From contig OX637407.1 in NCBI GenBank assembly GCA_951799425.1, positions 627,501 to 691,500 of the forward strand: a DNA stretch of 64,000 bases. Direction: 5' to 3'. The number at the start of each line of letters is the position of its first letter. Positions within the stretch are counted from its first letter, which is position 1. The DNA comes from Ilex aquifolium. Lineage: Eukaryota > Streptophyta > Magnoliopsida > Aquifoliales > Aquifoliaceae. This document shows positions 11,566-64,000 of the stretch, in pieces. Under the pieces are notes generated by a model. The model had not been told where the DNA came from and did not search any database. It worked only from the letters and a program-made list of their open reading frames with translations. Both the position numbers and the translations under genes were made by a program.

Positions 11566-12200
11566 TGTAATGCCCCAAAATTCACCCTATAAGGCATCAC
11601 TATTTATACAACATCTAACCATGAGTGTAAAACCACATTTATTTATAATAATGTGGTGTGCATTTATATATCTAATGATTAAAATATGGTTTATATATGT
11701 TGTATTAGAAGATACTAAGATTTTTGAATCGTGTTTGCATGTTTTGGGGGATTTTGGAGAGAATAAAATTGTACACTATTGGGGTATTTTAATCATAATG
11801 TTTTACACTAAAATCGGATGGAGATAATTTTTAGACAACAGAAACTAGACCTCTAGGGCTACAAAAGTGTATTTCATAAATTTTTTTTGAATCGACTTTT
11901 AAGTAGGGAAAAATTATATTGGAAGTTAAGGCAGAATACTGGGTCCACGTTCAAATGCAAATCACTTTCGAACAGGGCTTAGTTACAGTAGTTTGGTTTC
12001 TAACAGAAATTGAGATATTGCAAGCAACGAACGTTGGAATGTCAGTTATGTTTGAACAAGGCACGTTCGAATGCCAATCCCCATTCGAACGCAAGTGAAA
12101 TTTTGACAACGACCAAGCTCATGATGATTGTTCATATGTTGAACATATTTCACAATGGGGTGGCATAGTCATTAGCCCAAGTACTTGTTAATGGGGGCAA
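11566..12200. repeat. LTR-like sequence with TTCGAA palindromes
   Basis: This begins TGTAATGCCCC, a start typical of Tekay LTRs. It has degenerate TTCGAA palindromes around 11947-11972 and a clear pair at 12064-12073 and 12082-12091. It precedes Tekay gag coding. The right end and orientation are not certain, and the length (about 0.6 kb) is short for the family. Confidence 0.45.
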
Positions 12201-16701: not shown

Positions 16702-18385
16702 TGCTTGATGGTTTTCGTTGTATTCCCTAATCTCCTAACATCATCCCTCAATATGTGTGTGGCTTAGCGGGATAGGGGAGTGTCACTCTCCCTCAGAATG
16801 ATGCAAGAAATGGGGACACGGAATGGCGGATGAATGAAATGCGTGTGTGGGTGAACAAAAGTGCTCCCCAAGCGCATGGAGTCTTTTGAGTATCGTGTTT
16901 TACTAGGAAATCGTATTCCAAGGTCGTCTCCTCAGGGAAGGATGTTAATCGTGTTGAAGGTGATTTTTGGTAAAAAAAGGGTAAAGTGTAAAAAAAATTT
17001 GTTGTTTGAGTTTGGGTTATGATTGTATCTTGATGGAATTGAAATAGGAAACAAGTGTTGGCTAATCCGAAGGGTTTGTTCCAATGGGAATGTCAACTCA
17101 ACTCGAGACCTTCCCCCAATGGTGTCTAGATGTTCAATTTATTCGTGGGAGGTGCGGGACTAAAATGGAGGTGAGGATTCAAGCATACCCCATGACAATG
17201 CCTACGGTGTATCAAGAACTCACAACCAGGTCCACACTCAACCCAGTCAAACCGAACCAACGTACACTACAAGGGAGAAAGAAAATGAGTTGAAATGGCA
17301 TACCCAAGAGGAGGTCTCCCTTGGATTAGCCAAATTAAAAACTTAGCTACTCATACTTAAAGTAAAGACAACAATGTAATGAGAAGACATTGTAAAGAAA
17401 TGAAGATTTGAGCTAAGTTAATGCAAGGAAACATAGACTATAAGAAAGTGCATTTAAGACCCATCTTAAAGCTTGAAAATGAAGAACTTGAATCCATTAA
17501 CGGTGAAATGCAAAATGAAAGACTAAACTAGAAATGAACTTGCAATAAATGACATTAAAGACATTAAGCAAAGCTTAAAACAAGTCTTACCATAGATTAC
17601 AAGGCAATGTAAGGAAGAAAATGCAAAAAATATTCACTTCTCTCTCTAGCACTATTCATCTTCTTCCTTAGACTCTCTCTCTCTATATTCCATGTATATC
17701 TATCTAAAAACTAAATAATGGTGAATGGAGCCTTCCTCAAAAACGTCCATGGAGTGTCCCCTATCATGTGTGATGTGATCCCAATCAATAAGGGCTGCCA
17801 AGGAATGGGTTGGACAGGCTAGTGCAAGCATAGCCTGCACACCCAGCATCTTTTCTCTCCTCCCTCCTCATTAATTGCCAAAGCTCCAAAATTCCAAGCA
17901 TGAGTGTATGAGGAGATGTATGTGTGTAAGGCATGTCAGGAATGAGTGGGAGAGTGCTTGGTGGGACCCCCAAAGTTGCAGAGCTTGATATGCAGAATTT
18001 GGTTGTTTTCAGTAAAACCTACTGGTAGGTCAATGAAAACCTACCAGTAGGTTTCACTCTAGTGAGCAAAACCTATAGGTAGGTTTGCGGTAGGTGCAGG
18101 ACCAGTAGCTAAAACCTACCAGTAGGGCCTACCGGTAGGTTTTCTCTTGTTTGTTGATTTCTTGGTTCCTTCACCTTCTGAGCTCTCATCAAGCCTTAAT
18201 CTCAGCTCCATTCATCTTGAGCACCATGAGGGGGCTTAACTATCATCATTTAACCCCTTTTATCTGCAAACATACCGAAATTCCGTTAATAGCTCAAATA
18301 GTCCAATTCCGCTCATTTTAACCGTAAAAGCAAGTGTAAAAGAGATGTAATTGTACATAAAATGTGTAATGTTTTGTGCTAATCA
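16702..18385 (-). repeat. 3' LTR of E7
   Basis: The LTR is 1,684 bp. In sense orientation it runs from TGATTAGCAC (18385) to ATCAAGCA (16702). It is closely related to the E3 5' LTR. It carries the CCTACCGGTAGG array at 18018-18140 and the conserved R/U5 blocks. Confidence 0.9.
18018..18140. repeat. CCTACCGGTAGG array in E7 LTR
   Basis: Five or six copies, mostly with one transition, occur in about 120 bp. The first pair has centres 22 bp apart. The whole block, including the non-palindromic phrase 'tttgcggtaggtgcagg', recurs inside the element at 20391-20512. Confidence 0.88.
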
Positions 18386-18400
18386 CACCCCCCAACTTGA
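18386..18400 (-). promoter_or_regulatory. 3' polypurine tract of E7
   Basis: The plus strand reads CACCCCCCAACTTGA directly beside the LTR. On the element strand this is TCAAGTTGGGGGGTG before TGATTAG. It primes second-strand synthesis in this group. Confidence 0.8.
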
Positions 18401-18699: not shown

Positions 18700-20100
18700 A
18701 TAACATCCCTACTCATCATCTCCGTCACCACCCTCATCACCATCATCATCTTCATCATCACCAACGTCAATGTCAAAATCACTCTCACCCTCCTCCTCCT
18801 CATCTGTATCCTCATCAGTATCTCCCACCTCAACTATAGTGGAGGCAAAGGGGACAGAGGCAGGGAGGTGGAGGTCCAGCAGTCAGATGTGGTGGTCCAC
18901 CTGGGATGGGCCTTCCCGGGAATGTATGCATGAATAACTCTGTCATCATCGCCGAAATACCATGCACAGTCTCCTCCAATGCATCGAGGCGCTGATATAC
19001 TGTGCGCTCCAGTGCAAAGGTCAATGGGACAAACTCAAACGGGCCAGTAGATGGCCCAGCAGATGAAGGTCCCGAGAAGATAGGCTCTATAGATGGTGCA
19101 GAAGAAGAAGGTCCAGCAGCCTCTGACTCTGGCCTCGAAACCCTAGCCCGCTCACTACGGCTCATTGTCGTCCTCTTCATGCTACTGGCCTTTCCAATAG
19201 CCCCGGTCTCGGGGGGAGTGAGCTTGTCAAAGGCATAAGCCTTTACTTTGAAATGCTTGCACATTCGAGTGACCAAGTTCCCAAAAGGTAGATTGGCCTT
19301 AGGCTTTTGGGTCTCGGCGAAGTCCTTCATCACTTCCCATACAAAAAGTGCAAAGTCTACCATCTTTCCTGACATTACCACATCCAAAAGGGCCAACTTT
19401 TCAATGTTAGGCATCTTCTCAGTGCCCCTCGGAAGCAGATTACAATGAAGAAGCTTGTTCAAAATCCCATATGAATGTTTGAGGACCCCGACTTGGACCG
19501 TTCCCTTAAACTAAGTCGGGTCCTCATACATCAAAGCTATGTACTCAGAGATAGTATTGGTGCCAGTGATGTTATGCGGGTATACCGGGGTAGAGGGAGG
19601 CGGCCTCTCGTAGTGTAGGAGGGTAGCAATAATCGTAGGGGTCTCATCGAACATCTTACCCCTTACGTTCGTCCTCAAACCCTCACCCTCATCCACCACC
19701 TTGAGTTTTTGGTAGAATTCCCGGCATAAAGATAAATTGAACCCATCCACCTCAAACCAAAACGCCACCCATGAGCAACAATGATCCTAATGACCTCGTT
19801 CCTTGGACCAAGGGATATGTGGTCGAGGAACCTCTCGCACGTAACGTTCTTCTCTTGGATATTTTGGTACCTCGCCTCATTCCTAGCTTTCTTCCTTTGC
19901 TCATTACGGTCTCCACTTGAGCCCTCCCCACTCCTCTTGCGGGTACTTGTGTCCTCGGGCTGTGGAGAGTTAGGCTCGGTGCGTTTTGTTCGGGCCATGC
20001 ATAGTAACAGTGACCCTTGGGTCAAGAGTGCAAAAAGAGCCCAGACAAAACCCTCAATTGGGTCCATAACTTCCCGGAGAATCATCACTTCACGAGCCAT
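18700..20100 (-). pseudogene. ORF3 (plant transposon-protein domain) of E7
   Basis: Three overlapping or adjacent minus-strand frames together cover a gene of about 460 codons with about two interruptions. The N-terminus begins MARTKRTEPNSPQPED with a basic nuclear-localisation-like stretch (RKRSGEGSSGDRNEQRKKAR), then 'ERFLDHISLGPRNEVIRIIVAHGW' and 'YPHNITGTNTISEYIALMYEDPT'. Next comes the domain half matching E1 ORF3 ('PRGTEKMPNIEKLALLD', 'LPFGNLVTRMCKHFKVKAYAFDKLTPPE'). The C-terminal tail, coded around 18710-18830, is rich in Asp/Glu. No transmembrane segment is evident. The family is known as the extra 3' ORF of Athila elements, and its function is unknown. Confidence 0.8.
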
Positions 20101-20390
20101 TACAAAGATCTTGCAGATTTTGAAAAGAGTAAAAGGGATTAGGGATTATGGAATTTTTGGCAAACTAGGGTTTCAAAAGAGGGATTCTTCAAGACTTCAC
20201 TAAAAATCACTAAACCAACAGCCCTAGGGTTGAAGATTGAGAGATTAATGGAGTAGGAGGGAGATTTGGAAGCTAAGGAATGTTTTGAGTGAGAGAGAAT
20301 TGCTCTAGGGTCTGTAATTTAGGAGGACAATGAAGGGTTTCCCCAAAAAAATTCAATTAAAAGCCCTAATTTTGGCATTCTAGGCGAAAT

Positions 20391-20512
20391 CTACTGGTAG
20401 GTCGATGGAAACCTACCGGTAGGTTTTACTCTTGTGAGCAAAAAATACCGGTAGATTTGCGGTAGGTGCAGGACCAGTGGCCAAAACCTACCGATATGGC
20501 CTACCGGTAGGT
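20391..20512 (-). promoter_or_regulatory. Internal palindrome block upstream of E7 ORF3
   Basis: This is a second copy of the LTR's CCTACCGGTAGG array, colinear with 18018-18140 over about 120 bp, including palindrome spacing and the shared phrases 'tttgcggtaggtgcagg' and 'ggaccagt'. It lies about 290 bp upstream of the ORF3 start at 20100, and a CT-rich leader-like stretch lies between. No clear TATA box is visible in this copy. Probable internal promoter relic. Confidence 0.7.
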
Positions 20513-20867
20513 TTTGCCTTATTTGCAAAATACCCCTACTGTCCAACACACTTCCACTCCTCTTCATTTCAGGACCTACCCTACACACTCTAACACTCTC
20601 TTTATGACCTCTACTCCACCCTAAACATGTACTACACTTGTAAACCACAATTTGAACCATCATGCCCAAATCATTACCGAAATTGCAATGCGATTTAAAA
20701 TTTTGATGCATTCAACACACAAGGCATGGATTTCTATATTTAACTATCAAAATGAACAACCACAATGTAAGACACATATGCAAATAACAAGGGCATTCCT
20801 ACTTCATTCAAATATCAAAAACTTGAGCAATATTCCCCTATTCTGTAAGCATGGAGCTAGTTAACGA

Positions 20868-22873
20868 TGGCTTGATCCAAATGTATACACTCAAGTGCAG
20901 GCGGTCAAGCTGTAGTAATAATCCGGTTTGAGTCCGGAGTCGAATCCACAGGGAACTTTTGTTGATATTTCTAAGGCAAGCAGTGGTAGAGACCTTTTGA
21001 TTGTAACCTTTTTGATTTGCTGCGAGATATGGGTTTTGCTGGACAGAATACAAGATTCTTTCCAGAAAGATTTTCTTAACAAAATAGGAGATGAATGCTA
21101 ATTAAAAAAAGTCACCCTTTAGTGCAAGGATCTGGACATGTAATTAGTAATCCGGTTTGTCATAATTGTGCTTGATAACTCAATTAACTCCCGTGTCAAC
21201 AGCAAGTTAATCGGAAGATAAAGATGGATTGTGAGAATTAAGAACATGATTCTGATGTCTTTCTAGAAGTTTACAAGAATTGCCTGTGCCGAGACTTAAC
21301 CCGTCTACAAACAAGCAAGTGTTTCTACAAGACATCCAATCATGATATTAATAGTCCATTCTTTAAATGAAGTACATTAAGGGGGGAGATTGAAGGGTAG
21401 TCATGAGGATCTAGCCGGGGTACTTGCCTTGAACTGATGAGTCTTTCTATGCAGGAGTCATCCATGTCATAGAAAGAGCTCACAATTATACAAAGTACCT
21501 TAGCTTTGCTAGATGCAATCAATCATCCGATAACAAGAAGAAATAAACGTTAAGCATAAAAGAACATTGCACAAATATGATTCCCGGATAACTTGTACAT
21601 GTCTTTCTCCTCTCACTAAAGAGTGAATGAGAAACTACTCACTCTTCATGGCTTGGGTAAAGCTAGAAAAGTGAGTGATGATCATCCCTCCAAGTGGAGA
21701 ACTTTAAAAGATAAAGTAACAACAAACGCGGAGCGAATCTTCCACAAAGAATGAGTGAATCACGTTCCACCCTTCACGGCTTTAATCAAGCTCTAGAAAA
21801 GTGGAAGAGTTTCACTCTGCTAAGAAAGAAGGAAGCTCAAGCAATGGAAGTGAAATGCATGAACAATAAAAGTAGAAGAAAGCTAGTCACATTTGGAGGG
21901 TGGCTTCCTCAACCAAAGATTGGAGGGTTGCTTCCTCAACCAAGATGGGAGCTATTTCTCTTCTATGCATGAGAAATGAAAGCATAAACATAAGCATAAG
22001 CATAAAACTACTGTTATAACAAGCAAGAGATGTTGGGCTAAAGCCAAACTAATCTCTAAAATAAAGACTTCATAAGGAAAATGAACTAACTACAATGAGA
22101 GTGGGAGTCTAAGCCTCCATCACTATCTACTTTCTACTATGCTCTCCTTTTAGCTCTCCAGCAAGGGGAGTATTTATAGGCAAGAGGAGGAGGCAGGGGG
22201 GTGAAAGAATAGTGTTTGCCGCCCAAGTCAAAGTGAACAGTCAACAACTCTGCTGCCAGTCTGTGGATAACGTTCGAACGTGAGTTGGCGTTCGAACGTT
22301 CTTTCTGTTTTTGCACTGAGGGCATTCGAACGTTGACTGCCGTTCGAACGTTTCTTCTTGTTTTTGCACTAAGGGCGTTCGAACGTTGACTGCCGTTCGA
22401 ACGTTTCTTCTTGTTTTTGCACTAAGGGCGTTCGAACGCCAGCTTTGCTCTGACCCCTTTCACTCGAGTGATATGTGGTCTTCTGTGAAGTTCAGTTCCA
22501 ACTCTCTACAGTGGTCTGGTCTTCCATCAACTCAAGTGCACGTTCGAACGTGAGTTGGCGTTCGAACGTGCACTCAAGTACTTCAGAGCTCCAGTCTTCT
22601 TTCCTAACTGCAACACGCCTTCTCTTCAGCAGTTGAGCCTGCTACAGTGTATTGTGGACGTTCGAACGTGAGTTGGCGTTCGAACGTTCTGGCTGTGCTC
22701 CAAGCTTCTCCAATTTTGGGCTCTAATGTACTGGTGCTGCATCCAAGTGTGGTACTTGTTGTTCTTGGGTCCTTGTTCAGTTTAGGGCCTGAAATGACAT
22801 CACTTAAACTCCATTAAAGTACCATTAGTCTTAAAATGTCATAATAATATGTCAACTTTAAGTACTAATCAGT
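20868..22873 (-). mobile_element. E8: solo LTR (Athila type, TTCGAA class) in E7 spacer
   Basis: This LTR is about 2.0 kb, starting TGGCTTGATCC and ending TACTAATCA, clearly the same family as the E16 LTRs ('tggtagagacc', 'gagtcgaatccacagggaact'). GTTAAC lies 2 bp outside the left end (20860-20865) and directly outside the right end (22874-22879), probably the target duplication with slight decay. It has a TATA box on the minus strand (TATTTATAGG at 22171-22180) and TTCGAA palindromes at 22270-22688. Confidence 0.8.
22270..22688. repeat. CGTTCGAACG palindrome array in E8 LTR
   Basis: About eleven copies occur, most in pairs with centres about 18 bp apart (10-bp palindrome, 8-bp spacer, 10-bp palindrome). 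They lie just upstream, in sense orientation, of the TATA box at 22171-22180. Confidence 0.9.
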
Positions 22874-24392
22874 TAACACATTGTTCAAATGGCCGAACTA
22901 AGCACACATGAGCATCACTATAGCCTTAAATACTAGTCTAAAGTATGCACCTACACATTCATTTTCAAACTCGTGTGTGTGTGAATTGGACAAGTAATTT
23001 GAGCATTTACACAACAGAATTCATATTCGAATGGCTAGCCAAATTCAGTTTCAATGCAAAACTCACCAAATGTCACTTTTAGCAATGAAACACACTCTAG
23101 TTATCCTGGCATGCACTCCATGTGTACATGTGAGATAGAATCTTGTGTACAAAACAAAGTGTGCTCACATGTAATCCAAAAATGAAGTTCATGTATGAAA
23201 ATGAAGCGACTTTGGCATAATCTCATGAAAGGAATGTTAAGGCATTGGGTAGCAAGACTAACTCATCTTTTTCTTTAAAATTATGCATCTCTCATACTTC
23301 TCTAGATCAATTAGGACTTCAAGGGTTATAATTTGGCCTTGGGGCGATATTGTGGCAAAAGAAATGAACGATATAGGATAACAAAAAGGGTTGTTCCGAG
23401 TGAAAGACTTTTATTTCAAAAACACTTCCCTTTTCATGGGATTTTCATTCTTACACCATCACCACACTATTTGTTTCTTTTCTTTATTTTCCTTAACATT
23501 TTCCTTTTCTTTTGATCATTCTTTTCTTCTTCTCACCCCTTTTCTTCCTTTTCTTGGATTTTCATTATTTTTCCAATGAACTCCTCAAGTTTCAACATCA
23601 ATTTATCCCTTTGTTTGAGTTTCCACACCATACATCCTTTTCTTTTACAATTACACATATTCAGCTCTAGGAACAACCAAGGTGAGGTAGATTCTTTTAT
23701 CATTTTGCACTGGCTTGGTCAAATGTGTGGTATAGAAACGAATTTCAATTAAGGATCAATCACGGCACTACGAATAATCTTTTCACAAGAAAAAAGGGCA
23801 AAGGCTCAAAATATTCAAACATGGCCTAAGATCACCTCTAGATAAGCATGGGGGAGCCTTATGCATTTCAAGACAAGTCAATCAACTACACACATGCACC
23901 TAGCCAAGACAAACATAATTAGATTATTGAACAAATTTGACATTGAAAAATTATTCCTTGAGTAAATATAAGTTCCCTACAAAAAGGATTGGCACTAAAC
24001 CTCTCATGGGTCCTTACTCATCTCCACTATTTATGCCATGCCTAAAATATGAATCCAATCCGTAAATTGCTAAAATTACACATTCAGGGAGCACATACGA
24101 TTGAGTTCAAAAGCATATACATGTGTGATACTCACGCATAAGATTAACTTCTATAATATGCTCATGTGCTCAAGGTTCGAAACAAAAATCAATATATCAT
24201 CCAACCCAAGCACTCTTAATAAGGGAATACAGATCAACATTCAGATATTTTTCACAAAAATTTTCAAATTTTTTTTTCCACATAATTCGCACTGATGTAA
24301 ACAAAAATCTGTATGATATGTGAAAGGTGAATTTTCACCAAAAAAATTTGTATTATCCACAAACATTGGTGTATCATGCAAATGGTGCACCT
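22874..24392 (-). other. pol-ORF3 spacer of E7
   Basis: AT-rich sequence with polypyrimidine runs (about 23440-23580). No coding similarity is recognised. It corresponds to the long non-coding spacer that separates integrase from ORF3 in all the Athila copies here. Confidence 0.5.
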
Positions 24393-33437: not shown

Positions 33438-33440
33438 ATA

Positions 33441-38656: not shown

Positions 38657-38765
38657 TCTACCAGTAGGTCATGGGGCTTCTACCGGTAGCTCATGTCTAA
38701 TAGGGTCTTCTACCGGTAGGTTGTAAGCTCCTACCGATAGCTCATAAGGGGTCTGCTACCGGTAG
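38657..38765. repeat. CTACCGGTAG palindromes in E11 LTR
   Basis: Five copies of CTACCGGTAG or once-changed forms lie in about 110 bp, with flanks of the GCTC/AGGT type. Further left-over 'accgatacc' units follow at about 38925-38990. Confidence 0.85.
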
Positions 38766-39680: not shown

Positions 39681-40075
39681 TTGGGAGACTATTTGTTTCT
39701 TAAAGTGTCACCAAAGAAGGGAGTGTTCAGATTCGGCAAGAAAGGAAAGTTAGCCCCGAGGTATGCCTGTCCATGTAAGGTGATTAGAGTTGTGGGAAAG
39801 GTTGTCTATCAACTCAGATTATCGGCTCATTTATCAAGAGTACATGATTTATTTCACGTATCAATGCTAAGGAAGTTTGAACTTGGTACATCGCATGTAG
39901 TGGATTTGGAAGGAATTGAAATTCAGGATGGAGCAACTTATGAAGAATAACCGGTGAGGAGCACCAAAGAGAAGGTGATTCACAATAAGGTCATATTACT
40001 GGTGAAGGTATTGTGGCAACACCATGGAGTGGAGGAAGCTACATGGGAACCAAAGTTGGAGATGCGGGAGAAGTC
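39681..40075 (+). pseudogene. pol: Integrase C-terminus and chromodomain of E5
   Basis: The open frame at 39681-39950 reads 'GDYLFLKVSPKKGVFRFGKKGKLAPRYACPCKVI..VGKVVYQLRL...VHDLFHVSMLRKF', the GPY/F-type integrase tail. The next 120 bp encode 'STKEKVIHNKVILLVKVLWQHHGVEEATWEPKLEMREKS', a group II chromodomain of the Tekay type, believed to direct integration to heterochromatin. It ends where E13 begins. Confidence 0.88.
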
Positions 40076-41279
40076 ATGAGAGTATAATATTGCACATTAT
40101 AAACCTCATAACCATTCATCTTAGTTATGTTTGTCACTTAATTCCTTTTTGTTAGTTAAGTTTTGTATTTTATGGTGATTGTGGGTATTTACAGTTGAAT
40201 TGATGCAAAAACATGGAATTACATGTGTTTCAATGCCATGGAAGACTTGGGGCATGGTTTAAGAGGTCCAGGAGTGCAGCCAAGGCCATTGAAAACAAAA
40301 GTGAGGAAAAGACCACTTCTACCGATAGGTCTTCTACAGGTACAACTGAAGTCAGAAAGAGGTTATACTAGTAGGTCATCATTCCTACTCGTACGTGCAA
40401 TCCAGAGAGTTTTCCTACCAGTAGGTTAAAGATATAAGGGCATCCTACTAGTAGAAGAGCAAATTAATCAGTAGAAGGAAAACAATGAATAGTCCTACCG
40501 GTAGGTCATTTTTTGCTTCCTACCGGTAGGTTCCTGTAAATCTGCCGCGAGGACGGATTTGGAAAGACAATGTGCTAGGTTATTTTACATTATTTGCAAT
40601 TTCAATTCTTGCAATTTCAATTCTTTCCCTTTTGCTTTAATTTACAATGATGTTTTCTCCAATTGCTTCCAATTTACTTTATATCATGCGTGAGTAGTCA
40701 TTCACCGGTTTGATCGGATGAAGTAGTCTCATCTATGAATTGGAGATTTTGACTCAAAATTAGGGCAAGTCTGTTGTCGAGTTATTTGGGTCAATTGAAT
40801 AGGTTAATTGGAAAGATGTTCAATTGTATATCTTCTTACTTACTCGTTGACAACTAAAACTTGACATGGGTAATTCTTTTAATCAATGCAATTGAATTAA
40901 TTATGCTAATCGATTCAATTGATTTGGGTACACACTTGTAAATTAAATTGGGTGTTTAATGAATATCTACCACTTGGGTGGAGCCTAACTGTAAGTCAAT
41001 TGAGTTATAGAATTTGAGTTAAAATGCCTATTCACGGTGAGGTGACCTCTACCGATCAACCGATTTTTTTCATTTAAGTGTTATTTCTTTAATTAATTAA
41101 ACTTGTCAACTCTCAAATACTCTCAAAATTCTGAACTTTTATTTACTTTTGTTTTATCACCCTTTGAATCAACTGTCTTCCCTGAGGAGACGACCTTGGT
41201 AATCGATCGAGTTATAAACGATACCCCTTTCTGCGATTGGAAATTCATGTTAATTCAATACAACTCTAAGGAGCAAGCA
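40076..41279 (+). repeat. 5' LTR of E13
   Basis: Begins TGAGAGTATAATATTGC and ends GAGCAAGCA, immediately before the primer site. It carries several degenerate and two perfect CCTACCGGTAGG palindromes, and a 'gaggagacgaccttgg' U5 block. Confidence 0.87.
40494..40530. repeat. CCTACCGGTAGG pair in E13 5' LTR
   Basis: Perfect palindromes lie at 40494-40505 and 40519-40530, centres 25 bp apart, joined by a 13-bp spacer. The 3' LTR has the equivalent pair at about 48434-48469, followed by TATAAAT. The internal pair at 46003-46039 has the same 25-bp spacing and a similar spacer. Degenerate copies extend left to about 40318. Confidence 0.88.
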
Positions 41280-46002: not shown

Positions 46003-46069
46003 GCTACCGGTAGGTCAAAAAGTGCTTCCTACCGGCAGGTTCCTATTCAAATCGAAAAAATATATAAGG
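46003..46069 (+). promoter_or_regulatory. Internal promoter-like block upstream of E13 ORF3
   Basis: A palindrome pair (GCTACCGGTAGG at 46003-46014, CCTACCGGCAGG at 46028-46039) has the same 25-bp spacing and a spacer (GGTCA...TGCTTCC) matching the LTR pairs. It is followed by GGTTCCTAT and a TATA box (TATATAAGG at 46061-46069), then a CT-rich leader to the ORF3 ATG at 46212. It looks like a transplanted U3 core promoter. Confidence 0.75.
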
Positions 46070-46211: not shown

Positions 46212-47640
46212 ATGGCTCCAAGGAAATTTTTGTCTCCAACTCTCCCTCTCTGATGAAGCTTTTGAGTTTACACTCCTACCATGGGTTCTATTCATCTCAA
46301 TAGTCCCTCTGATTTTGTTGGGTATGGCCTGAATGTTGGGTGGCCAGAGGACACCTCAGGTTAAGAATACATCAGCGGCTAAAGGTGTGGCTTCTTCATC
46401 CACTCTGGCTTCTGGAAAAGAGAAAGGGAAAATAAAAATGGGGGTTCAATCTGATTCTGAGGAGGAGGATGAGGCACCTCCTGTGGCAAAGAAAGCAAAT
46501 AAGCCTAAGAAGCCCGAGTACAAGGAGACTATAGAGAAGAGGGGTAATGTGTGAGCGGATGGTGGATGCCAATAGCTTAGGTAAGACTCCAGTAGTTAGA
46601 GTACTCGTTGATCGAGGGCTTGATTTTTTCTTTAAGCCCGTTGAAGGCTATATTTTAGCTCTATGTTGTGAGTTTACTTAGGTTGAGTTTGGTTGTTGCA
46701 GATTTGTTATTGATGAGGACTAAGGTCTGGGGGAAGGTGATTGATGTTACGCTAGCTTCTATAACTAAATACCTAAGCTATACGAGGCTTCAGCCCACTG
46801 AGATTGATTATCCCCACATCACTTTTGCTACCAAGGATGCCTTGGAGTATGTGTCAGAGATGTATGAGCATCCTGTGAATTTCTAGGGGAAATTTGTACA
46901 TGGTCATTTGGATGGGGATTATAGGTTGATGAACATGATTCTCCATTATAATATGTACCCTAAGGGCTCATAGAAGCAACTAGGGATGCAAAAGATTACG
47001 TTGTTTTATGAGTTCATGTCAGGTTGAGGATCGACATCGCCTTGATGATTTGGGGCGTGTTGAGAGATTACTGCACCACATGCAGGCCAAAGGGGAACAT
47101 GCCCTTTGGTAATATGATCACCTAGCTTTGTCTGAAGTCTGGTGTGAAGAGATTGGCATCCGATATTATGAGTCCTCCAGAGTTTGGGCCCATAAGTAGT
47201 GTGGGACATAGGAAGAGCTCAACTATGTCGAGGGCTAGTGGTTGGAAAGGTAAGAGTACAGCCACTCCTTCCACTACGACTGAAATTGCTACGGAGACTG
47301 CGCCGACCTCTCGTGCCATTGTGAATCAAAGGATGAGCAAGTTGGAGGAGCGACTTGGTGGTATAAATAATGGTGGGAGGACTACTAGGAGAGCTCTGGA
47401 GAGGGTTGAGTCCAAGGTAGACGTGTATGGGGATGTTGGGGATGTTGTTTGAGCTTGATTTTCCTAGAGCGACGATTCCAGAGGGGACGACAACACCTAC
47501 TTCTACCCCAACTCTTGGATCGTGTTCCACTCCTATTTCTGCTACACCTCTCAGTATGGCTATGGAGCGCACCACTGAGGAGGATGAGTCTTTAGAAGAT
47601 GAGGGAGGGAATAAGGGTGATGATGATGCATCTAACTGAT
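46212..47640 (+). pseudogene. ORF3 (plant transposon-protein domain) of E13
   Basis: Fragments begin at an ATG (MAPRKF) and include a Ser/Lys-rich N-terminal stretch with an acidic patch (SDSEEEDEAPP), then 'EYVSEMYEHPVNF' and 'WGKVIDVTLASITKYLSY' of the domain, 'LASDIMSPPEFGPIS' near its end, and an acidic tail (EEDESLEDEGGNKGDDD). It corresponds to the ORF3 of E7 and E1. Broken in several places. Function unknown. Confidence 0.78.
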
Positions 47641-51242: not shown

Positions 51243-52988
51243 TGACTTGATCCGAAATGTGTACACCCAAGTAGAGGCGGTCAAGCTATAGTAATAATCC
51301 GGTTTAAGTCGGGAGTCGAATCCACAGGGAACTATTTGTTGGTGTCTCAAAGTAAGCAGTGGTAGAGACCAAATGATTGTAACCTTTGAGATTTAAAGTT
51401 ATGAGGTTTAGGGATTTTTTGCTGGGCAGAATATAAGATTCTTTCCAAGAAAATTTTCTAGACAAAATACAAGATAAGCTCAAACGTAAAAAGTCACTTT
51501 TTAGTTCAAGGATCTGGACATATAGTTAATCAGCCGGTTTATTATACTTGTGCTTGATAACTCAATTAACCCCCCATGTCAACAGCAAGTTAATTAGAAG
51601 ATAAAGATGGACTATAAGAATTAAGAACATGGTTCCGATGTCTTTCTAGAAGTTTACAAGAATTGTCTGTGCCGAGACTCAACCCGTCTACAAACAAGCA
51701 AGTGTTTCTACAAGACATCCAACCATGACATTAATATTCGATTCTTTAAATGAAGCATAATAATGGTGAAGATTGAAGGGTAGTCATGAAGATCTAGTCG
51801 GGGTACTTGCTTTGAACCAATGAGTCTTTCAATGCAAGAGTTATCTATGTTATAGAAAGTACTCATGGTTATACAAAGTACCTTAGCTTTGCTAGATGCA
51901 GTCAATCATTCAATAAGCAAGGGGAATATAAAGCATTTAAGCATAAATGAAATGCACAAATATAACTTCCGGATAATTTATACATGCCCTTCACCTCTTA
52001 CTAAAGAATGAATGAGAAACTACTCAATCTTCATGGCTTTGGTAAAGCTAGAAAAGTGAGTGATGCTCATCCCTCCAAGTAAAGGAGTTACAAAGTGAAA
52101 CAACCTAAACACAGAGCCGATCTTCAACGAAGAATGAGTGAATCATGTTCCATCCTTCACGGCTTTGGTAAAGCTCTAGAAAAGTGGAAGAGTTTCACTC
52201 CTCTAAGAAAGAAGAAGGCTCAAGCAATAAAAGTGAAAGAAATAACGAAAGTAGAAGAAAGCTAGTCACTTTTAGAGGGTTTCCTCCTCAACCAAAAGAT
52301 GAACTATCTCCCTTGATACAAGTAAATATAAGACAATTCTACAACTATATGAGTGGGAATCTAAGCCTCCATCAAGCTCTCTACAAGTCCTCTTTTACTC
52401 TCCTAAAATGGGAGTATTTATAGGCAAGGAGAAGGAGACAAGAGGGGAAGAAGGAATAGTGCATTGCTGCCCAAGTCCAAGTGAAAGCTAACCACTCTGC
52501 AGCCAATCTATAGACAACGTTCGAACGTTGTCTCTGTCTTTGCTTGATGGGCGTTCGAACGCCAGATGGGGTCTGACCTTCCCACTCAAGTGGCCTGTGG
52601 TCTTCTGTGAAGTTCATTTCCACACTCCATGCAGCATCATGGCCTTCACATGATTCCAGGGGACGTTCGAACGTTGATTGGCGTTCGAACGTGGTACTCA
52701 AGTACCTCAGGGTCTTCCTTCTTGGCAGCAACACGACATGTCTCAGCAGTCTGGTCTTCACATGATTTAAGGTAACATTCGAACGTTGATTGGCGTTCGA
52801 ACGTTCTTGCCTTGGTCCAAGCTTTTCCAATTTTGCTCCAGAATATGCTGGTGTTGCATGAAAGTCTAATATCCATCGCCTTTGGTCCCTTGTACAATTT
52901 ATGCCCTGAAATGTCATCATTTAAACTCCATCAAAGTATAATTAGTCTTAAAAGGGCATAGTAATATGCTAATTTTAACGACTAATCA
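51243..52988 (-). repeat. 3' LTR of E16
   Basis: The LTR is 1,746 bp, with plus-strand ends TGACTTGATCC and ACTAATCA. TTCGAA palindromes at 52513-52805 lie upstream, in sense, of a TATA box (TATTTATAGG, 52415-52424 on the plus strand). Confidence 0.92.
52513..52805. repeat. CGTTCGAACG palindrome array in E16 LTR
   Basis: Includes one 20-bp perfect palindrome centred on TTCGAA (52513-52532), one single copy near 52550-52562 and two pairs with 18-bp centre spacing (52664-52691 and about 52776-52804). Confidence 0.92.
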
Positions 52989-53004
52989 CACCCCCCCCAA
53001 CCTA
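52989..53004 (-). promoter_or_regulatory. 3' polypurine tract of E16
   Basis: The plus strand reads CACCCCCCCCAACCTA directly against the LTR, i.e. a G-rich purine tract on the element strand. Confidence 0.82.
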
Positions 53005-54839: not shown

Positions 54840-55941
54840 TCTCCTCCAGCTCCACCCCTCAAGTAGCCGAGAATCTCCTCCTACTGTCGGAGAATCTCAG
54901 CTTGCTTGGTCTCAATGCCAAGCATGATATCTCTCAGTGATCTCCGGGTGCTAGAGCTAGGTCCTGCCTCTGGTGGCTGCTCCTAGGCTCTCTCAGTCTC
55001 TAGCTCTCTCTCCTCCTCCTCATCGATCTCCTCTTGCACCTCATCAACTCCTCGGGTAGGGGGCACCTCATGTCTTGCCGTCGGGCCTCCACTATGACCT
55101 TGGCTTCGTCGAAAAGAAGCCTTGTTAAGTGGTCCCATTGGCCTCTATATAGTCATCTCAGGCCTCACCCTGATCCCATGGTCTCTGCACATCTCAGTCA
55201 CTAGGGTGCCAAACGGGAGCGAATTCCGCTTCACATCGCATCCTTTCTTCATTTCATTCAAGATGAGAGAGGGGAGGTCTATGTTGTAGCCTTTCCCAAG
55301 AGCGTAGAGAAGGCGGGCCATTTCGGGCAAGATCTCGTTCTTGCGCCCAATTGGGGCGAAGTTCAAAACCACAAGCAAATTAAACATCTTGTATTTGTCA
55401 GTCAGTTCCTCTTGTCGAAAAAATCTCCGCCCAGCCCAAGAAAAGTTAGCCACCCCCGTCAGCTCCGCTCCAACCACATTCATAGCTACGTTCTTCCTTG
55501 GGGGGTAGGTGGGCTTGGGTACCCGAGGCACTTCTTGCCTATTCTCTCTTATGCAGTCTTCATCTACATCGATGTGGGACCCCCTTACATAGCTTTTTAG
55601 CGCCCTGTTGACTATTTCGACATTGGAGTAAAACTCCCGCACCAAGTCAACTACGGCCTCTCCGCCATTTCGCAAATACAACTCCCAACCTCTCCTTTCC
55701 ATATTCTCCAAAATACCCAACTCAACAAAATCCTCTAATACCACATCATGCTCACAAACTACCGCATTGTTTTGGTAAAAATTCTCATACCTATCTGCTT
55801 TGAGAGCCATGGGGAAGCGAGTCTTGTCATATCTACGGACAATGGGTGGCCTCCCTTGTTGCTCTTCGATCACCTCCTCCACGAAATTGGGCTCTTAAGT
55901 GGCTGGGTTGCGCCTAGCAGGGAGCTTGACCCTTGGAGGCA
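54840..55941 (-). pseudogene. ORF3 (plant transposon-protein domain) of E16
   Basis: The main open frame (245 residues, 55145-55882) carries the domain: 'RRYDKTRFPMALKADRYENFYQN', 'VLEDFVELGILENMERRGWELYL', 'LVREFYSNVEIVN', then 'LNFAPIGRKNEILPEMARLLYALGKGYNIDLPSLILNEMKKG' and 'NSLPFGTLVTEMCRDHGIRV'. The same gene extends at both ends, from an ATG at 55941 (MPPRVKLPARR, basic) to a Glu-rich tail near 55000. Compared with E7 and E1 the domain is conserved and the ends are variable. No signal peptide or membrane segment is seen, arguing against a true envelope. About two or three breaks. Confidence 0.82.
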
Positions 55942-56153
55942 TGATGTTTTCGGGTTTGAGGTTTTTAGGGCTTGAGAGTTTTGATTTCTTTGTGAAAATA
56001 AGGATTTTTGATGTGGGAATGGTCTTGGGAGGGTCAATTTTAGGTAGAAATGGGGAATGAATGGTGTTTTGAGGACTGGGTATAGAAAAGGCACCCTAGG
56101 GTTTGGAGGTTTTTTCAAAATTTTGGGGGTTTTGGAATGAAGAAGACGAACCA

Positions 56154-56437
56154 GGCTTTTATAGCCTGAGAATTGACGTTCGAACGTCAATGGCGTTCGA
56201 ACATGTGTAGAAGAATTTTTAAAAGATCGTTCGAACGTGAGTGTCGTTCGAACGTGGTGAGCTCCCAGTACTTTTGAGTTCTGTCAAATACCAAAGTACT
56301 GTAAGCTCTCCTCGTTCGAACGTTCTATTGGCGTTCGAACGTGCTGAGCTCCCAGTACTTTTTGTTTCCATCAGAAGCTTCAGCAGAGACTGAGTACTAC
56401 AAGCAGGTAACGTTCGAACGTCGCGTGACGTACGAAC
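56154..56437 (-). promoter_or_regulatory. Internal promoter-like block upstream of E16 ORF3
   Basis: Seven or eight TTCGAA palindromes, mainly in pairs 17-19 bp apart (56174-56437), are followed in sense by a TATA box (GGCTATAAAAGCC, itself nearly symmetric, 56154-56166), a CT-rich leader and the ORF3 ATG at 55941. One pair keeps the LTR phrase CACGTTCGAACGCCAAT. Palindrome class and pairing match this element's own LTR. Confidence 0.8.
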
Positions 56438-56449
56438 ATCAGATCAAAA

Positions 56450-57757: not shown

Positions 57758-58858
57758 TCAGGCAGGGTTGGATTTTTCCTGACTCGATCTGTTTGAGTGT
57801 CGGCAGGCGCGAATCTCGGAGGAATATTCTGGATCCATTAAAAGAATGGTCTCCACATTTTTCACAAAGTCCTCAAAAAATGGTTTCAACTGCTGACCAT
57901 TAACAGTAAAGATATTACCGTTCGATGGGTTTTCCACTTCTACTGCTCCATATCCAAACACCTTTTTGACAATGTAAGGCCCAGTCCATCTTGACTTCAA
58001 CTTACCAGGAAAGAGGCAGAGTCTTGAATTAAACAATAGGACTTTTTGAGAAGGTTCAAAAGACTTCCGCACAATGTTCTTGTCATGAAAAATTTTCATC
58101 CTGGTTTTAGCAATCTTAGCATTCTCATATGCTTCATTTCTCAATTCCTCCAATTCATTTATCAGAAGTTTCCTTGCTAGTCCGGCCTTGTCCAGGTCAA
58201 AGTTCAATGCTTTAATGGCCCAGTATGCTCTATGTTCCAATTCCATAGGTAGGTGACACGGCTTTCCATAGACTAATCGATAAGGAGACATGCCCAAAAT
58301 TATTTTGAAAGCAGTGCGATAAGCCCAGTGTGCATCAGTTAGTCTTGATGACCAATCTTTGCGGTCTGGATTTACCATTTTGTCTAAAATTAATTTGATC
58401 TCCCGATTAGCTAATTCAGCATGTCCACTAGTTTGTGGGTGATAGGGGGTTGCAATTTTGTGAAAGATCAAGTATTTTCTCATCAAATTCCAGAAGGGAC
58501 GATTGCAAAAATGGGCACCCCCATCACTTATGATTGATTTCAGAATTCCAAATCGGGACAAAATATTTTCTTTTAAAAACTTGATCACTGTGCGGTGATC
58601 ATTATTTCGGCATGGAATTGCTTCAACCCATTTGGATACATAGTCTACGGCCACTAAAATGTATAGATAGCCAAAGGGAGGGGAAAACGGTCCCATAAAA
58701 TCGATGCCCCAACAGTCAAACATTTTAATCACCAGAATGGGGTTTAAGGGCATCATGTTTTTTTTAGAAATGTTTCCCAACCTTTGGCATCTATCGCAAT
58801 TTAAACAAAAGGCATGAACATCTTTGAAAAGTGTGGGCCAGTAAAATCCATACTGCAA
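57758..58858 (-). pseudogene. pol: Integrase of E16
   Basis: An open frame of 366 residues. It starts in the zinc-binding region 'CLNCDRCQRLGNISKKNMMPLNPI', then the catalytic core '[31 protein letters not shown]' (Asp), 'IISDGGAHFCNRPF' (Asp), '[20 protein letters not shown]' (Glu) and '[26 protein letters not shown]', and the C-terminal 'LLFNSRLCLFPGKLKSRWTGPYIVKKVFGYGAVEV'. It is the best integrase in the window. Its upstream joins to RNase H are broken. Confidence 0.92.
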
Positions 58859-58978
58859 GATTTTTGCAGCGGTTTTCCTTGATGAAAAATGGCCACCGCA
58901 TGCTTCAGAATGACAAAATGTTATTACCTGACTGCTTTCATGAGCGGGGATGCAACACCTTATGATTTGATCCTTACA

Positions 58979-59816
58979 TTACTTAGATACGTAGGGATCC
59001 TCCCAAAAGAAGTTACGAACCTCCCTCAGAAATTTCTTTTTGTCCATCATGGTAAAGGACGGAGGGAGCGTACCAGTAGCAAGGAAGTTAGCAATATCAG
59101 CGTACCATGGTGTCTCATCAATTGTGAACAGTTGTTCATCGGGGAATTTCTCATTGATTGGCAATCCATCCTCGTGAAATTCATACATTAATCTGGACAG
59201 ATGATCTGCCACCACATTCTCAACACCCTTTTTGTCTTTAATGATCAGATCAAACTCTTGGAGCAAGAGTATCCATCTTAAGAGCCTTGGCTTGGCATCC
59301 TTCATTGTGAACAAGAATTTTAGGGCTGCATAGTCAACGAATACAGTAACAGAAGAACCAACGAGATAGGAACGGAATTTTTCCAAAGCAAAAACTACAG
59401 CAAGCAATTCTTTCTCAGTCGTTGAATAATTCATTTGAGCATCATTCAAAGTTTTGCTTCCATAGTAAATCACATGTGGTTTCTTGTCCTTTCTTTATCC
59501 CAACACAGCACCTATACAATAATCACTTGCATCACACATTAGTTCAAAGGGTAGAGTCCAGTCAAGGGGTTGCATGATTGGAGCAGTTTTTAACATACCC
59601 TTAAGCTTTTCAAAAGCTTTCTGGCATGCTTCATTCCACACAAAAATTACGTCCTGACTCAGAAGATGACACATGGGTTTGGCTATGGTACTGAAATCTT
59701 TTATGAATCTCCTGTAAAAACCTGCATGCCCTAGGAATGATCAGACATCCTTTACAGTCTTAGGGGCGGGCAAATTTCCAATCATATCTATTTTTACCTT
59801 GTCAACTTGCATGCCC
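58979..59816 (-). pseudogene. pol: RNase H of E16
   Basis: Reads 'MIYYGSKTLNDAQMNYSTTEKELLAVVFALEKFRSYLVGSSVTVFVDYAALKFLF...PRLLRWILLLQEFDLIIKDKKGVENVVADHLSRL', a clear gypsy RNase H with the TEKELLAVV and ADHLSRL landmarks. The stretch up to 59816 holds the RT connection region. RNase H removes element RNA from the hybrid. Confidence 0.9.
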
Positions 59817-60554
59817 TCAGACGACATAATGTGACCTAAGAAAATGTCTTGTGTTACCATGAAATGATATTTTTTTCCAATTGAGCACTAGATTGGCTTC
59901 TTTACACCTTATCAACGCCTTTTCTAGGTTGGCCAGACATAAATCAAATGAGTCACCATAGACAAAGAAGTCATCCATGAATACTTCCAAAAATGTCTCA
60001 ACCATGTCACTGAACAAGCTCAGCATGCATCTTTGGAATGTTGCAGGAGCGTTACAAAGTCCAAATGGCATCCTTTTGAATGCAAAGGTGCGAAAGGGGC
60101 ATGTGAATGTGGTTTTCTCCTGATCATTTAATGTTATCTCAATTCGATTGTACCCGAAATATCCATCCAGGAAACAGTAGAATTCATGGCTTATAATTCT
60201 CACTAGAACCTGATCAAGAAAGGGAAGGGGGAAATGGTCTTTCCTAGTCACCAAATTGAGTTTTCGATAGTCAATACACATCCGCCATCCTGTGACGACT
60301 CGAGTTGGGACTAGTTCATTTGCATCATTTTTTACCACTGTGACCCCGGACTTCTTGAGCACTACTTGGGTTGGACTAACCCATTTGCTATCGGAGATGG
60401 GAAAGATTATCCCTGCATCTAAGAGCTTGAGTACCTCCATTCTCAAAACTTCCTTCATGTGAGGGTTCAGTCGTCGCTGCATTTGACGAGAGGGTTTTGA
60501 ATCCTCTTCAAGGTATATAGCATGATTGCAGATTAACGGGCTTATACCTTTCAA
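59817..60554 (-). pseudogene. pol: Reverse transcriptase of E16
   Basis: An open frame of 245 residues with 'SKWVSPTQVVLKKSGVTVVKN', 'GWRMCIDYRKLNLVTRKDHFPLPFLDQVLVRI', 'YCFLDGYFGYNRI', 'KTTFTCPFRTFAFKRMPFGLCNAPATFQRCMLSLFSDMVETFLEVFMDDF', including catalytic FMDD. This is the only RT in the window in one frame from entry to FMDD. Regions on both sides are broken. Confidence 0.93.
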
Positions 60555-60670
60555 GTTAGCGATGGTCCACCCAATGGTGCCTTTATGGCTTTTAAGAACT
60601 TCAATCAGTTTAGACTATTGCAAGCCTGTGAGCTTAGATGAAATTACCACTGGGTATGACTCGTCCTCTC

Positions 60671-61942
60671 CTAAGAATGCATATTTGAGGTCAGATGGGA
60701 GAGGTTTAATTCAGGCTTTGGTGGCCTGTCACTTGATGAGAGTGGCTTTTTGCCACTTGGCGAAATCTCTTCGAATTTGGGGGCCCATGTCCCAACAGTA
60801 TGAGTGGGGCACGTCTTTGGGTCATCATTTGTTGTCTCAGATGAGATAGACTCTAGTAGAGAAGATTCAGTAGGGTTCTCACAGAAGGTGTCATTCAGAT
60901 GTTCCTGTATCAAAGATTCAATGGAGTTTATTTCCTCTTCTTCCTTGTCCTCTCCCGGGTGCTTAGCAATATTGAAAATGTTCAGCTCGAGAGTCATATT
61001 CCCAAAAGTTAATTTCATGAGTCCATTCCTGCAATTGATTAGTGCATTGGAAGTTGCTAGGAAGGGTCGACCAAGAATGACGGGAATTTGATTCTCCGAA
61101 TGTATTGCAGGCTGAGTATCTAGAACAATGAAGTCAACAGGGAAGACAAAGTTGTCCACTTGGACAAGTACATCTTCAACAATGCCCTTAGGGATTTTGA
61201 CAGATCTGTCAGCCAACTAGAGTGTGACACAAGTGGGTTTGAGTTCATCCAGACCCAACTGCTGGTAGACAGAGTATGGTAGCAAATTAACACTGGCTCC
61301 AAGGTCTAACAATGCTTGTTCTATTCTGAAGTTTCCAATGACACATGACACAGTCGGACACCCCGGATCCTTGTATTTTGGAGGGGTTTTGTGTTGAAGC
61401 AGGGCAGTGGCTTGTTCTGTCAAGAAGGCTCTTTTTTTGACATTCTGGCTTCTCTTGACTGTGCACAAGTCTTTTAGAAACTTGGCATAAGACAGAACTT
61501 GTTTGATTGCATCCAGAAGTGGGATGTTGATTTTTACTTGCTTAAAAAGCTCATAAATTTCAGGCTGATTATTCAACTTCTGTATGGTTTTGAGTCTATG
61601 AGGAAAAGGAGCAGGAATGGAACACGAAGGTTCTCTTTCCTCAGAAGGTTCTGGCACTTGTTCAATCATAGGCTTAGGTTCTTCTTCAATTACACGTTCA
61701 GGCTCAATTGGTTCAGGCTCAAATGATGAGTTGACTGGGATTGACTCAGGTTTTGGCTTTGGAATTAGCATGTCTCTGATGGTCTTGTCAATCACCTTGC
61801 CACTTCTCAGTGTAGTGACAACTTGGGCTTGGTCTTGTGGGTTTTCCATGATCGAAGGGTTCTCCACATGGAATTGGCCTTGTGGTTGTTTTGGTTGGGC
61901 AGGGAACTTGCCCTTTTCATGTGTGGCCATGGATTGGGTCAA
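60671..61942 (-). pseudogene. pol: Gag C-terminal linker and protease of E16
   Basis: First frame: a Pro/Glu-rich linker ('VTTLRSGKVIDKTI', 'PFPHRLKTIQK'), then 'EQALLDLGASVNLLPYSVYQQLGLDELKPT' with the DLGA active site. Second frame: 'MADRSVKIPKGIVEDVLVQVDNFVFPVDFIVLDTQ...IPVILGRPFLATSNALINCRNGLMKLTFGNMTLELN'. The same order as in E3, E9 and E13. Confidence 0.88.
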
Positions 61943-61984
61943 CTTTTGGATGTGGCTTTTAAGATCCTCGAAAGATTGAGTGGT

Positions 61985-63326
61985 CTAGGTTTTGAAATCA
62001 GTGAAAGCCTGTGTGGAATTATTGTTGTAGTTCATTTGGCTTTGCATGAACTGATTCAGTGTGTCCTCAAGGCTCCTCTTTTGTGGTGGTTGGTATGGTT
62101 GATATGCGGGAGGTCCTTGAGGTGGTGGGTGTGAACCTTGTTGTTGGTTCATGGGAGTCGTTTGTGTGTTCCTCCAACTGAAGTTCGGGTGGTTCCGCCA
62201 CCCTGGATTGTATGTTTCAGAGTATGGGTTGGAGTAAGGCTTGTTGAAGTTGGAAACTGCATTTGTTTGTTCCAACAAGACCTCCTTGAACGCTGGGATG
62301 GTAGGACACTCCCCAGTAGGGGTCCTGTTAGCGCACAGATTCCACACACTTGTTATGTGGAAGGGCTAACATCAACTTGATGGACTTTTTTCATCTCTAA
62401 AGCTTCAAGCTTTCGAGACAAAGTAGACATTTTTGCTCTCAGGTCGTCATCATCTCTCAATACATACTTACCCCCTAGGGAAGTAAATGGTTTGGCTTCT
62501 ACAGTGGTAGGAGAGGCTGAGTCCCACATCTGAGAACTATCAGAGATGGTGTCAAAAAAATTGAATGCCTCTCCGGACTTTTTTCCATAAACTCTCATTG
62601 GGCCATCATTTCGACAAACTGGCGTAGTCTAGTGGGCAAGGAGTCATAGAAAAATCCTACCAAAGTCCAATCCTCAAAAGTATGGTGTGGGCAGGATTGG
62701 AGAAGATCTTTGAATCTCTCCCAACTTTGGTAAAAATTTTCTCCTTCTTTAACCGAAAAATTCATGATTTGCCTTTTGAGTGCATTCGTGCGGTGTAGAG
62801 GAAAAAACTTTCTGAAAAATTCATTTTGTAATGCCTGCCAGTTAGGTATTGAAAGAGTTTTTAAAGAATTTAGCCATTGTTTAGCTTTGTCCCTTAAAGA
62901 GAAAGGAAAAAGTTTCACCTTGGCTAGTTCAGAATTGTCTTGAAATGTTCCACACACTTCCTCAAAATCTTTTATATGCAGATATGGATTTTATGCATCC
63001 AATCCATGAAAAACAGGTAATAAATGCACTGTCCCCGGCTTTACAGTAAAGAGGGGAGCATTTTCAGGGAATACAAAACAAGAGGGGACACTATTTCTTG
63101 TGGGATTTAAGTAATCCCGCAAAGTTCGAATGTTAGGCACTTCCCCCTCTCTCATAGGGACTTCTCCATTTCTCTCATTATTTGCCATATTACTCTCACA
63201 AGAGTCTACAACTGATCTAGGTGAATTTGGTTCAGGCTGATTCACAAACTCACAAGATTCTGCTGACAAATTTTGATAGTGAGGAGTGCCCTCAAATATA
63301 AAAATAAAGAAAATAAAACAAAACAA
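61985..63326 (-). pseudogene. gag: Gag of E16
   Basis: Pieces read 'MANNERNGEVPMREGEVPNIRTLRDYLNPTRNSVPSCFVFPENAPLFTVKPGTVHLLPVFHGLDA', 'KVKLFPFSLRDKAKQWLNSLKTLSIPNWQALQNEFFRKFFPLHRTNALKRQIMNF', 'WERFKDLLQSCPHHTFEDWTLVGFFYDSL' and a Gln/Pro/Asn-rich tail. A coiled-coil-like 'LRAKMSTLSRKLEALEMKKV' lies between. Broken in a few places. Confidence 0.88.
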
Positions 63327-63422: not shown

Positions 63423-63428
63423 AAAACT

Positions 63429-63905
63429 TGACTTGATCCGAAATGTGTACACCCAAGTGCAGGTGGTCAAGCTGTAGTAATAATCCGGTTTAAGTCCGGA
63501 GTCGAATCCACAGGGAACTATTTGTTGGTGTCTCAAAGTAAGTAGTGGTGGAGACCAAATGGTTGTAACCTTTGAGATTTAAAGTTGTGAGGTTTAGGGA
63601 TTTTTTGCTGGACAGAATATAAGATTCTTTCCAAGAAAGTTTTCTAGACAAAATACAAGATAAGCTCAAACGTAAAAATTCACTCTTTAGTTCAAGGATC
63701 TGGACATGTAGTTAATCAGCCGGTTTATTATACTTGTGCTTGATAACTCAATTAACTCCCGTGTCAACGGCAAGTTAATCGGAAGATAAAGATGGACTAT
63801 GAGAATTAAGAACATGGTTCTGATGTCTTTCTAGAAGTTTACAACCCGTCTACAAACAAGCAAGTGTTTCTACAAGACATCCAACCATGACATTAATATT
63901 CCATT
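63429..63905 (-). repeat. 5' LTR of E16 (first 477 bp, then split by E17)
   Basis: Begins TGACTTGATCC like the 3' LTR and stays colinear with 51243 onward until E17 enters. The remainder should lie beyond the window. Confidence 0.88.
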
Positions 63906-64000
63906 TGACTTGATCCGAAATGTGTACACCCAAGTGCAGGCGGTCAAGTTGTAGTAATAATCTGGTTTGAGTCCAGAGTCGAATCCTCAGGGAACTATGG
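63906..64000 (-). repeat. E17: start of another LTR of the E16 family
   Basis: TGACTTGATCC opens a second copy of the LTR end in the same orientation, inserted into the E16 5' LTR after CCATT (63901-63905), the likely target duplication. It continues past the window end. Confidence 0.82.

Follow-up and report, generated by a model that had tools for sequence, protein, structure and literature searches.

Palindromes common to the LTR and the region ahead of ORF3 in Athila-like retrotransposon relics of Ilex aquifolium, and a probable internal promoter

In Sireviruses, palindromic motifs occur in the LTR ahead of its TATA box and, in envelope-containing elements, also ahead of ENV (77 of 79 linker copies); the palindromes were taken as support for an internal promoter, which was not conclusively identified in that report (Bousios 2010, PMC2829016). 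For Athila6A of Arabidopsis, transcription start sites, ORFs, and an intron have been defined and an ENV ORF promoter named, and nearly all copies that keep this promoter are RDR6-RdDM targets (Panda 2016, PMC4977677). Maize Grande contains gene23, an antisense ORF with its own promoter (cited in PMC7264820). The 3′ ORF of sunflower Athila elements has partial similarity to the PF20167 domain and predicted nuclear localisation signals (PMC11728184). A tRNA-Asp primer binding site is given for Diaspora and Calypso in a figure legend.

We describe here an Athila-like relic, the focal element, in a 64-kb stretch of Ilex aquifolium DNA (hereafter the window, meaning the whole stretch analysed), which is rich in LTR retrotransposon relics. 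The extra gene of this element, ORF3, probably has its own promoter, because palindromes like those of the LTR cluster with a TATA box just ahead of it and two other element families show a like layout with motifs of their own.

The focal element and its ORF3

The focal element (family A) lies on the minus strand and is classified as an Athila-like Ty3/gypsy relic from its gene order and its ORF3 (PF20167). Self-homology places its 3′ LTR at 51243..52990; the 5′ LTR (63429..64000) is represented by its 3′ part only, with U3 beyond the window edge. Pfam matches locate gag at 62595-62990, RT at 59817-60614, RNase H at 58979-59494, and integrase at 57758-58978. The protease region was placed within 60671-61984 by homology to other copies (tblastn); the focal piece has no Pfam match, and one homologous copy matches Asp_protease_2. 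The order gag - PR - RT - RNase H - IN is therefore present, in frames that are interrupted (57758..62990). Integrase precedes RT in Ty1/copia elements. A polypurine stretch lies between ORF3 and the 3′ LTR, and GCGCCGTTGCCTGGGAAC, a possible primer binding site, is found just inside the 5′ LTR end.

An inverted fragment of the focal LTR (50836-51242) abuts the 3′ LTR end, with 50836-51184 being 96% complementary to 52640-52988. The LTR end sequence restarts 476 bases into the 5′ LTR (63905-63998, 94% identical to 63428-63521), which suggests a tandem or nested LTR past the window edge.

An extra sense ORF of the Athila type lies between integrase and the 3′ LTR. It begins with the ATG at 55942 and is broken in this copy, where an in-frame TAA (55897-55895) ends the first segment (55895..55942, minus) after 15 codons. 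The rest (55145..55894, minus) continues in the same frame and matches PF20167 (Transposase_32; E = 2.5e-24). A search for ORF3 homologues yielded seven short proteins among 346 candidates, which were used for alignment only.

The palindrome block and its relation to the LTR U3

Between integrase and ORF3 lies a cluster of palindromes (56172..56438, minus), the proposed activating region. It contains seven exact TTCGAA (56179, 56196, 56230, 56247, 56315, 56334, and 56413) and an eighth, degenerate palindrome (10-mer 56429-56438, two mismatches). These form four pairs with spacings of 17, 17, 19, and 18; all nine pairs found in family A LTRs have a spacing of 18. The TATA-proximal palindrome, ATTGACGTTCGAACGTCAAT (56172..56191), is perfect over 20 bp, and the gap between the last palindrome and the initial T of the TATA box GGCTATAAAAGCC (56154..56166, minus) is eight bases. 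The expected number of TATAWAW matches is 0.037 per 60 bp of strand. One pair keeps the LTR flank phrase CACGTTCGAACGCCAAT, which occurs at 56327 in the block and again in the 3′ LTR, at 52677. An earlier reading of this DNA from its letters (the sequence-only reading) had claimed seven or eight palindromes in pairs spaced 17-19 bp, a TATA box directly ahead of ORF3, and an LTR flank phrase in one pair, and our analysis agrees with it on all of these points. It had also described a CT-rich leader. The region from the TATA box to the ORF3 start (55943..56163, minus) is not strictly CT-rich: C makes up 32%, and the leader is better called G-poor (7%) and A-rich (36%). It runs for 219 bases from the TATA box to the ATG without an earlier ATG. 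Judged from TATA spacing, transcription would start at about 56128-56138.

The density of these sites was compared with simulations and with the rest of the window. In 5000 first-order Markov simulations of the 284-bp block itself, TTCGAA occurred 0.31 times on average and at most 4 times, compared with 7 in the block, and perfect palindromes of at least 10 bp occurred 0.35 times on average and at most 4 times, compared with 6. Random 284-bp pieces of the window (n = 4679), drawn so as to avoid the block and the main LTR zones of family A, held at most 3 TTCGAA. The same pieces held up to 8 palindromes of 10 bp of any sequence, since palindrome arrays also exist in other element families. The whole window contains 42 TTCGAA, compared with an expected 15.5 ± 3.8.

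The U3 of the focal 3′ LTR has five exact CGTTCGAACG sites between 52518 and 52803, upstream of the LTR TATA box CCTATAAATACTC near 52423; the TATA-proximal palindrome (52512..52533) is perfect over 22 bp. In local alignments of 55700-57757 to the LTRs and other family A pieces (blastn, 7-base words), homology between block and LTR is confined, among the matches listed, to paired modules of ~31-34 bases. The best module, CACGTTCGAACGCCAAT plus the second palindrome, has 94% identity. A large U3 duplication was rejected as the origin of the focal block, since, among the first 40 alignments, these modules were all that aligned to the LTR. The description of the block as a copy of U3 in the sequence-only reading thus holds for modules of ~31 bp and is not supported as a large duplication in the focal element; a longer shared stretch, of 139 bp, is found in family B. 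Within the block itself, sequence is duplicated locally at a step of 87 bases, with AAAAGTACTGGGAGCTCA.

At 11946..12098 (plus) the block has a decayed homologue, 64% identical in an alignment of 158 columns (E = 6e-10). It scores 84 against the block and 57 against either LTR (Smith-Waterman), and 368 control pieces of the window reach 41 at most; no ORF3 was detected behind it. This homologue indicates that the block is an old part of family A and not a one-off insertion.

Other families and the placement of the motifs

The family B block ahead of ORF3 (20387..20525, minus) carries CCTACCGGTAGG palindromes and has 139 bp in common with its own LTR U3, being 86% identical over that length to 18015-18153 in the same orientation. 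It stands ~290 bp ahead of 20100, the first of the ORF3-B ATGs considered; the intervening stretch contains one ATG and no clear TATA box. Family B ORF3 (18833..20100, minus) has broken frames and several candidate ATGs after 20100; its two PF20167 matches (E = 1.1e-10 at 18833-19510 and 2e-4 at 19514-19786) are both below Pfam's cut-off. The family B 3′ LTR (16725..18387, minus) has exact and degenerate U3 palindromes at 18018-18139. At 15523-16018, where a family B LTR has its U3 end, 14 exact CTWCCGGWAG are arranged in ~31- and 105-base steps.

Family C has a pair ahead of ORF3 (46003..46068, plus), in which each palindrome is one mismatch from CCTACCGGTAGG, followed by the TATA box TATATAAG from 46061 and the ORF3-C ATG at 46212. 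The leader is 155 bases from TATA box to ATG without an earlier ATG. The LTR pair CCTACCGGTAGGTCATTTTTTGCTTCCTACCGGTAGGTTCCT reappears at 46003 as GCTACCGGTAGGTCAAAAAGTGCTTCCTACCGGCAGGTTCCT, and the module has local scores of 65 and 63 to the two family C LTRs, with a control maximum of 48 (462 pieces). These LTRs lie at approximately 40070..41250 (5′ LTR, plus), with a pair CCTACCGGTAGG N13 CCTACCGGTAGG at 40494-40530, and at ~47996-49400 (second LTR, plus); family C may be a composite element. The ORF3 remnant (46212..47449, plus) was identified by similarity to ORF3-B (39% over 61 residues and 48% over 31 residues) and gave no Pfam match (0 of 4 pieces). Basic clusters that look NLS-like by eye occur in the N-terminal parts of ORF3-B (RKRSGEGSSGDRNEQRKKAR; 19678-20100, minus) and ORF3-C (VAKKANKPKKPEYK; 46333-46551, plus). 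There is also a fourth ORF3 at 3-698 (plus), with a PF20167 match below cut-off (E = 1.9e-8); the DNA upstream of it falls outside the window.

In one relative, A2, no ORF3 was detected. Its LTR (20868..22880, minus) contains 10 exact CGTTCGAACG, with palindromes at 22271-22686 upstream of its TATA box at 22179. The internal part examined (22881-26886) contains no exact CGTTCGAACG and two isolated TTCGAA. No tblastn match to ORF3 was obtained in A2 with the focal ORF3 as query, a query that also misses ORF3-C, and the integrase end is only 1757 bases from the LTR. A2 is a single element without a detected ORF3 and so one negative case. Apparently nested in the A2 RT is an element whose LTRs would be the 95% identical direct repeats at 26887-28208 and 32112-33440, which flank a gag-protease region. 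Two conserved noncoding stretches link these relics, one common to A2 (23019-23240) and C (45215-45442) and the other to A (53059-53180) and C (45635-45755). In A and A2 they are close to the polypurine tract; in C they precede ORF3.

The 64-kb window holds 55 sites that match one of the two motif classes exactly, 24 of them CGTTCGAACG and 31 CTWCCGGWAG. The latter comprise 19 CTTCCGGAAG and 11 CTACCGGTAG, making 30 perfect palindromes, and one half-changed site; symmetry is thus kept although the sequence differs, with local duplication reducing the number of independent events behind these counts. The sites are restricted to two kinds of place: 46 of the 55 are within LTR intervals, 9 precede an ORF3, and the remaining 43.6 kb has none, with LTR intervals that we set from self-homology (one, 36666-39223, is interrupted). 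Because the intervals ahead of ORF3 were first drawn around the sites, a recount was made over a fixed 600 bp upstream of each of the three ORF3 ATGs and again gave 6, 2, and 1. Sites inside one cluster are not independent, and the pattern amounts to three clusters and one negative element, with all replication coming from a single 64-kb window; the non-LTR clusters lie ahead of an ORF3 in three cases out of three. A third motif class was seen at 36061-36162, with five CGTACCGGTACG palindromes, one of them perfect over 28 bp.

The cores are kept between two LTRs. Between LTR A and LTR A2, 50 of 50 core positions agree, compared with 371 of 486 positions outside (p = 5e-6), and 60 of 61 agree when the cores of A2 are used; the comparison was run in both directions and with two extents, and the aligner may match repeated motifs and so inflate identity. 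Core conservation was not significant between LTR A and its inverted fragment (p = 0.61), between the family B internal block and LTR (p = 0.20), between the focal block and its relic (p = 0.12), or between LTR B and LTR B3 (p = 0.20). On average, symmetry does not reach beyond about 10 bp, and no selection for longer symmetry was seen in family A, with 1.25 of 5 further positions symmetric compared with 1.70 in cross-site controls (24 sites), or in families B and C, with 2.39 of 5 compared with 2.35 (31 sites). Only 52518 and 56177 among the 24 family A sites, the TATA-proximal sites of LTR and block, are symmetric at all five further positions.

A likeness of the motifs to bZIP, W-box, CHR, or tRNA B-box sites is possible, and we make no claim of it. 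No plant regulator of the motif appeared in the literature matches listed, as judged by titles and the starts of abstracts. Viral contigs gave no match to one pair pattern; nine prokaryotic contigs matched a looser pair pattern and were taken as chance background.

A proposed internal promoter, alternatives, and comparison with described systems

In our interpretation, ORF3 has an internal RNA polymerase II promoter of which the block is the upstream activating region, acting through a factor common with the LTR; we give this a probability of about three in four. The succession of palindromic sites, TATA box, ATG-free leader, and gene fits the anatomy of an internal promoter. In the proposed mechanism, a sequence-specific protein, in the simplest case a symmetric dimer, would bind to every 10-bp palindrome CGTTCGAACG. 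Bound in the LTR U3, it would promote the full-length RNA; bound at the internal block, it would promote a short ORF3 mRNA that starts ~30 bp past the TATA box and has a leader without an ATG. The same sites stand in U3 ahead of the LTR TATA boxes (52423; A2, 22179), which suggests one factor for both promoters. Such a common factor would account for the likeness of internal and LTR palindromes within a family, and other families would use other palindromes. A second promoter for ORF3, as put forward in the sequence-only reading, is accordingly the best-supported interpretation, with a like layout in families B and C, and stays one drawn from sequence. Counting against it are the broken ORF3 of this copy and, in family B, the lack of a clear TATA box and the single ATG before 20100.

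It is unlikely that ORF3 is made only by splicing of LTR-initiated RNA, with the block as an intronic enhancer or a U3 passenger. Splicing from the LTR transcript is possible given that acceptor-like sites are present in all three leaders; TTTGTTCTTAG in the family C leader is acceptor-like, as is CTTTGTTCTTAG shortly 5′ of the family C start. A passenger would be unexpected ahead of ORF3 in three families, each with its own motifs, and absent from the one relative without a detected ORF3, and the TATA boxes directly downstream of the palindromes in A and C also count against splicing alone. The published record points both ways. The sequence-only reading took Athila ORF3 to be usually assumed to arise by splicing, an assumption that agrees with acceptor sites predicted for BAGY2 and Athila (Bousios 2010, PMC2829016) and with the intron of Athila6A, and that is at odds with the ENV ORF promoter named for Athila6A (Panda 2016, PMC4977677).

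We regard as quite improbable a reading in which the palindromes are the target of a family-specific factor that may be the ORF3 protein; ORF3 would in that case encode a nuclear regulator, expressed from a promoter of its own. Such a protein would activate its own promoter and the LTR or shield them from silencing. Motif and reader would then turn over jointly between families (CGTTCGAACG, CTTCCGGAAG, and CTACCGGTAG), much as they do in element-specific anti-silencing systems.

A role in RNA, in which the pairs fold as hairpins in the full-length transcript for dimerisation, packaging, or small-RNA processing, is very improbable. The block folds unusually well (-111.3 kcal/mol, z = -8.6, 0 of 200 shuffles as good), and an RNA role is possible on that account; a low folding energy is nevertheless expected anyway, because any two copies of one palindrome can pair. 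The flanks are complementary at 10 of 15 positions in 2 of 13 pairs, and over all 13 pairs complementarity is 4.1 of 15, not above the 4.9 found for different pairs (n = 156). Unpaired sites also exist, including the longest family A palindrome (52512-52533), and 55000-57800 gave no Rfam match at gathering thresholds.

Least probable is that the CpG-rich palindromes are a chromatin feature, an unmethylated island or silencing target, rather than activator sites: CpG observed/expected is 1.61 in the block compared with 0.50 in the window (0.43 in the leader), Sireviruses are described with CpG islands at the same two places (Bousios 2010, PMC2829016), and nearly all Athila6A copies with the ENV ORF promoter are RDR6-RdDM targets (PMC4977677), but the CpG excess arises largely because each palindrome brings three CpG, the TATA box and ATG-free leader are left unexplained, and such a feature and a promoter are not mutually exclusive.

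The internal promoter reading can be set beside three described systems. The closest likeness is to the RM boxes of Sireviruses, which are likewise short, many-copy, element-specific palindromes found in the LTR and ahead of an envelope-like gene. RM-bearing elements without the gene are reported to have no internal copies (Bousios 2010); here, three families with ORF3 have them and A2, in which no ORF3 was detected, does not. Sireviruses are Ty1/copia elements, whereas the elements described here are Ty3/gypsy, with integrase downstream of RT. The CGG-CCG core signature reported for Sireviruses is absent from CGTTCGAACG, CTTCCGGAAG, and CTACCGGTAG, the cores here being TTCGAA in family A and ACCGGT or TCCGGA in families B and C. 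An internal TATA box and an ATG-free leader are visible here in A and C, whereas the Sirevirus internal promoter was not conclusively identified (Bousios 2010).

The ENV ORF promoter of Athila6A is alike in lineage name and in place, being internal and serving an ORF downstream of pol; compared by description only, the available text mentions no palindromes shared with the LTR (PMC4977677). Grande gene23 is likewise an additional ORF located between pol and the 3′ LTR and has a promoter of its own; it differs in being antisense, whereas ORF3 here is sense (PMC7264820).

Given these three precedents (Bousios 2010, Panda 2016, and Grande), neither an internal Athila promoter nor palindromes in two places is a new idea. 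What is new here is that elements of the Athila lineage carry palindromes at both sites, the LTR and the stretch preceding ORF3, and that the motif at both is the family's own; no earlier report of such shared palindromes in Athila was among the open-licence PMC matches listed. How and why the Athila-type extra gene is expressed is unsettled, and this palindrome code offers a concrete candidate cis-element for an internal promoter. That the palindromes differ between families and agree between LTR and internal site within each suggests a trans-acting factor that co-evolves with them. The appearance in Ty3/gypsy elements of an arrangement described for the Ty1/copia Sireviruses suggests convergence or a general solution for elements that carry an extra gene.
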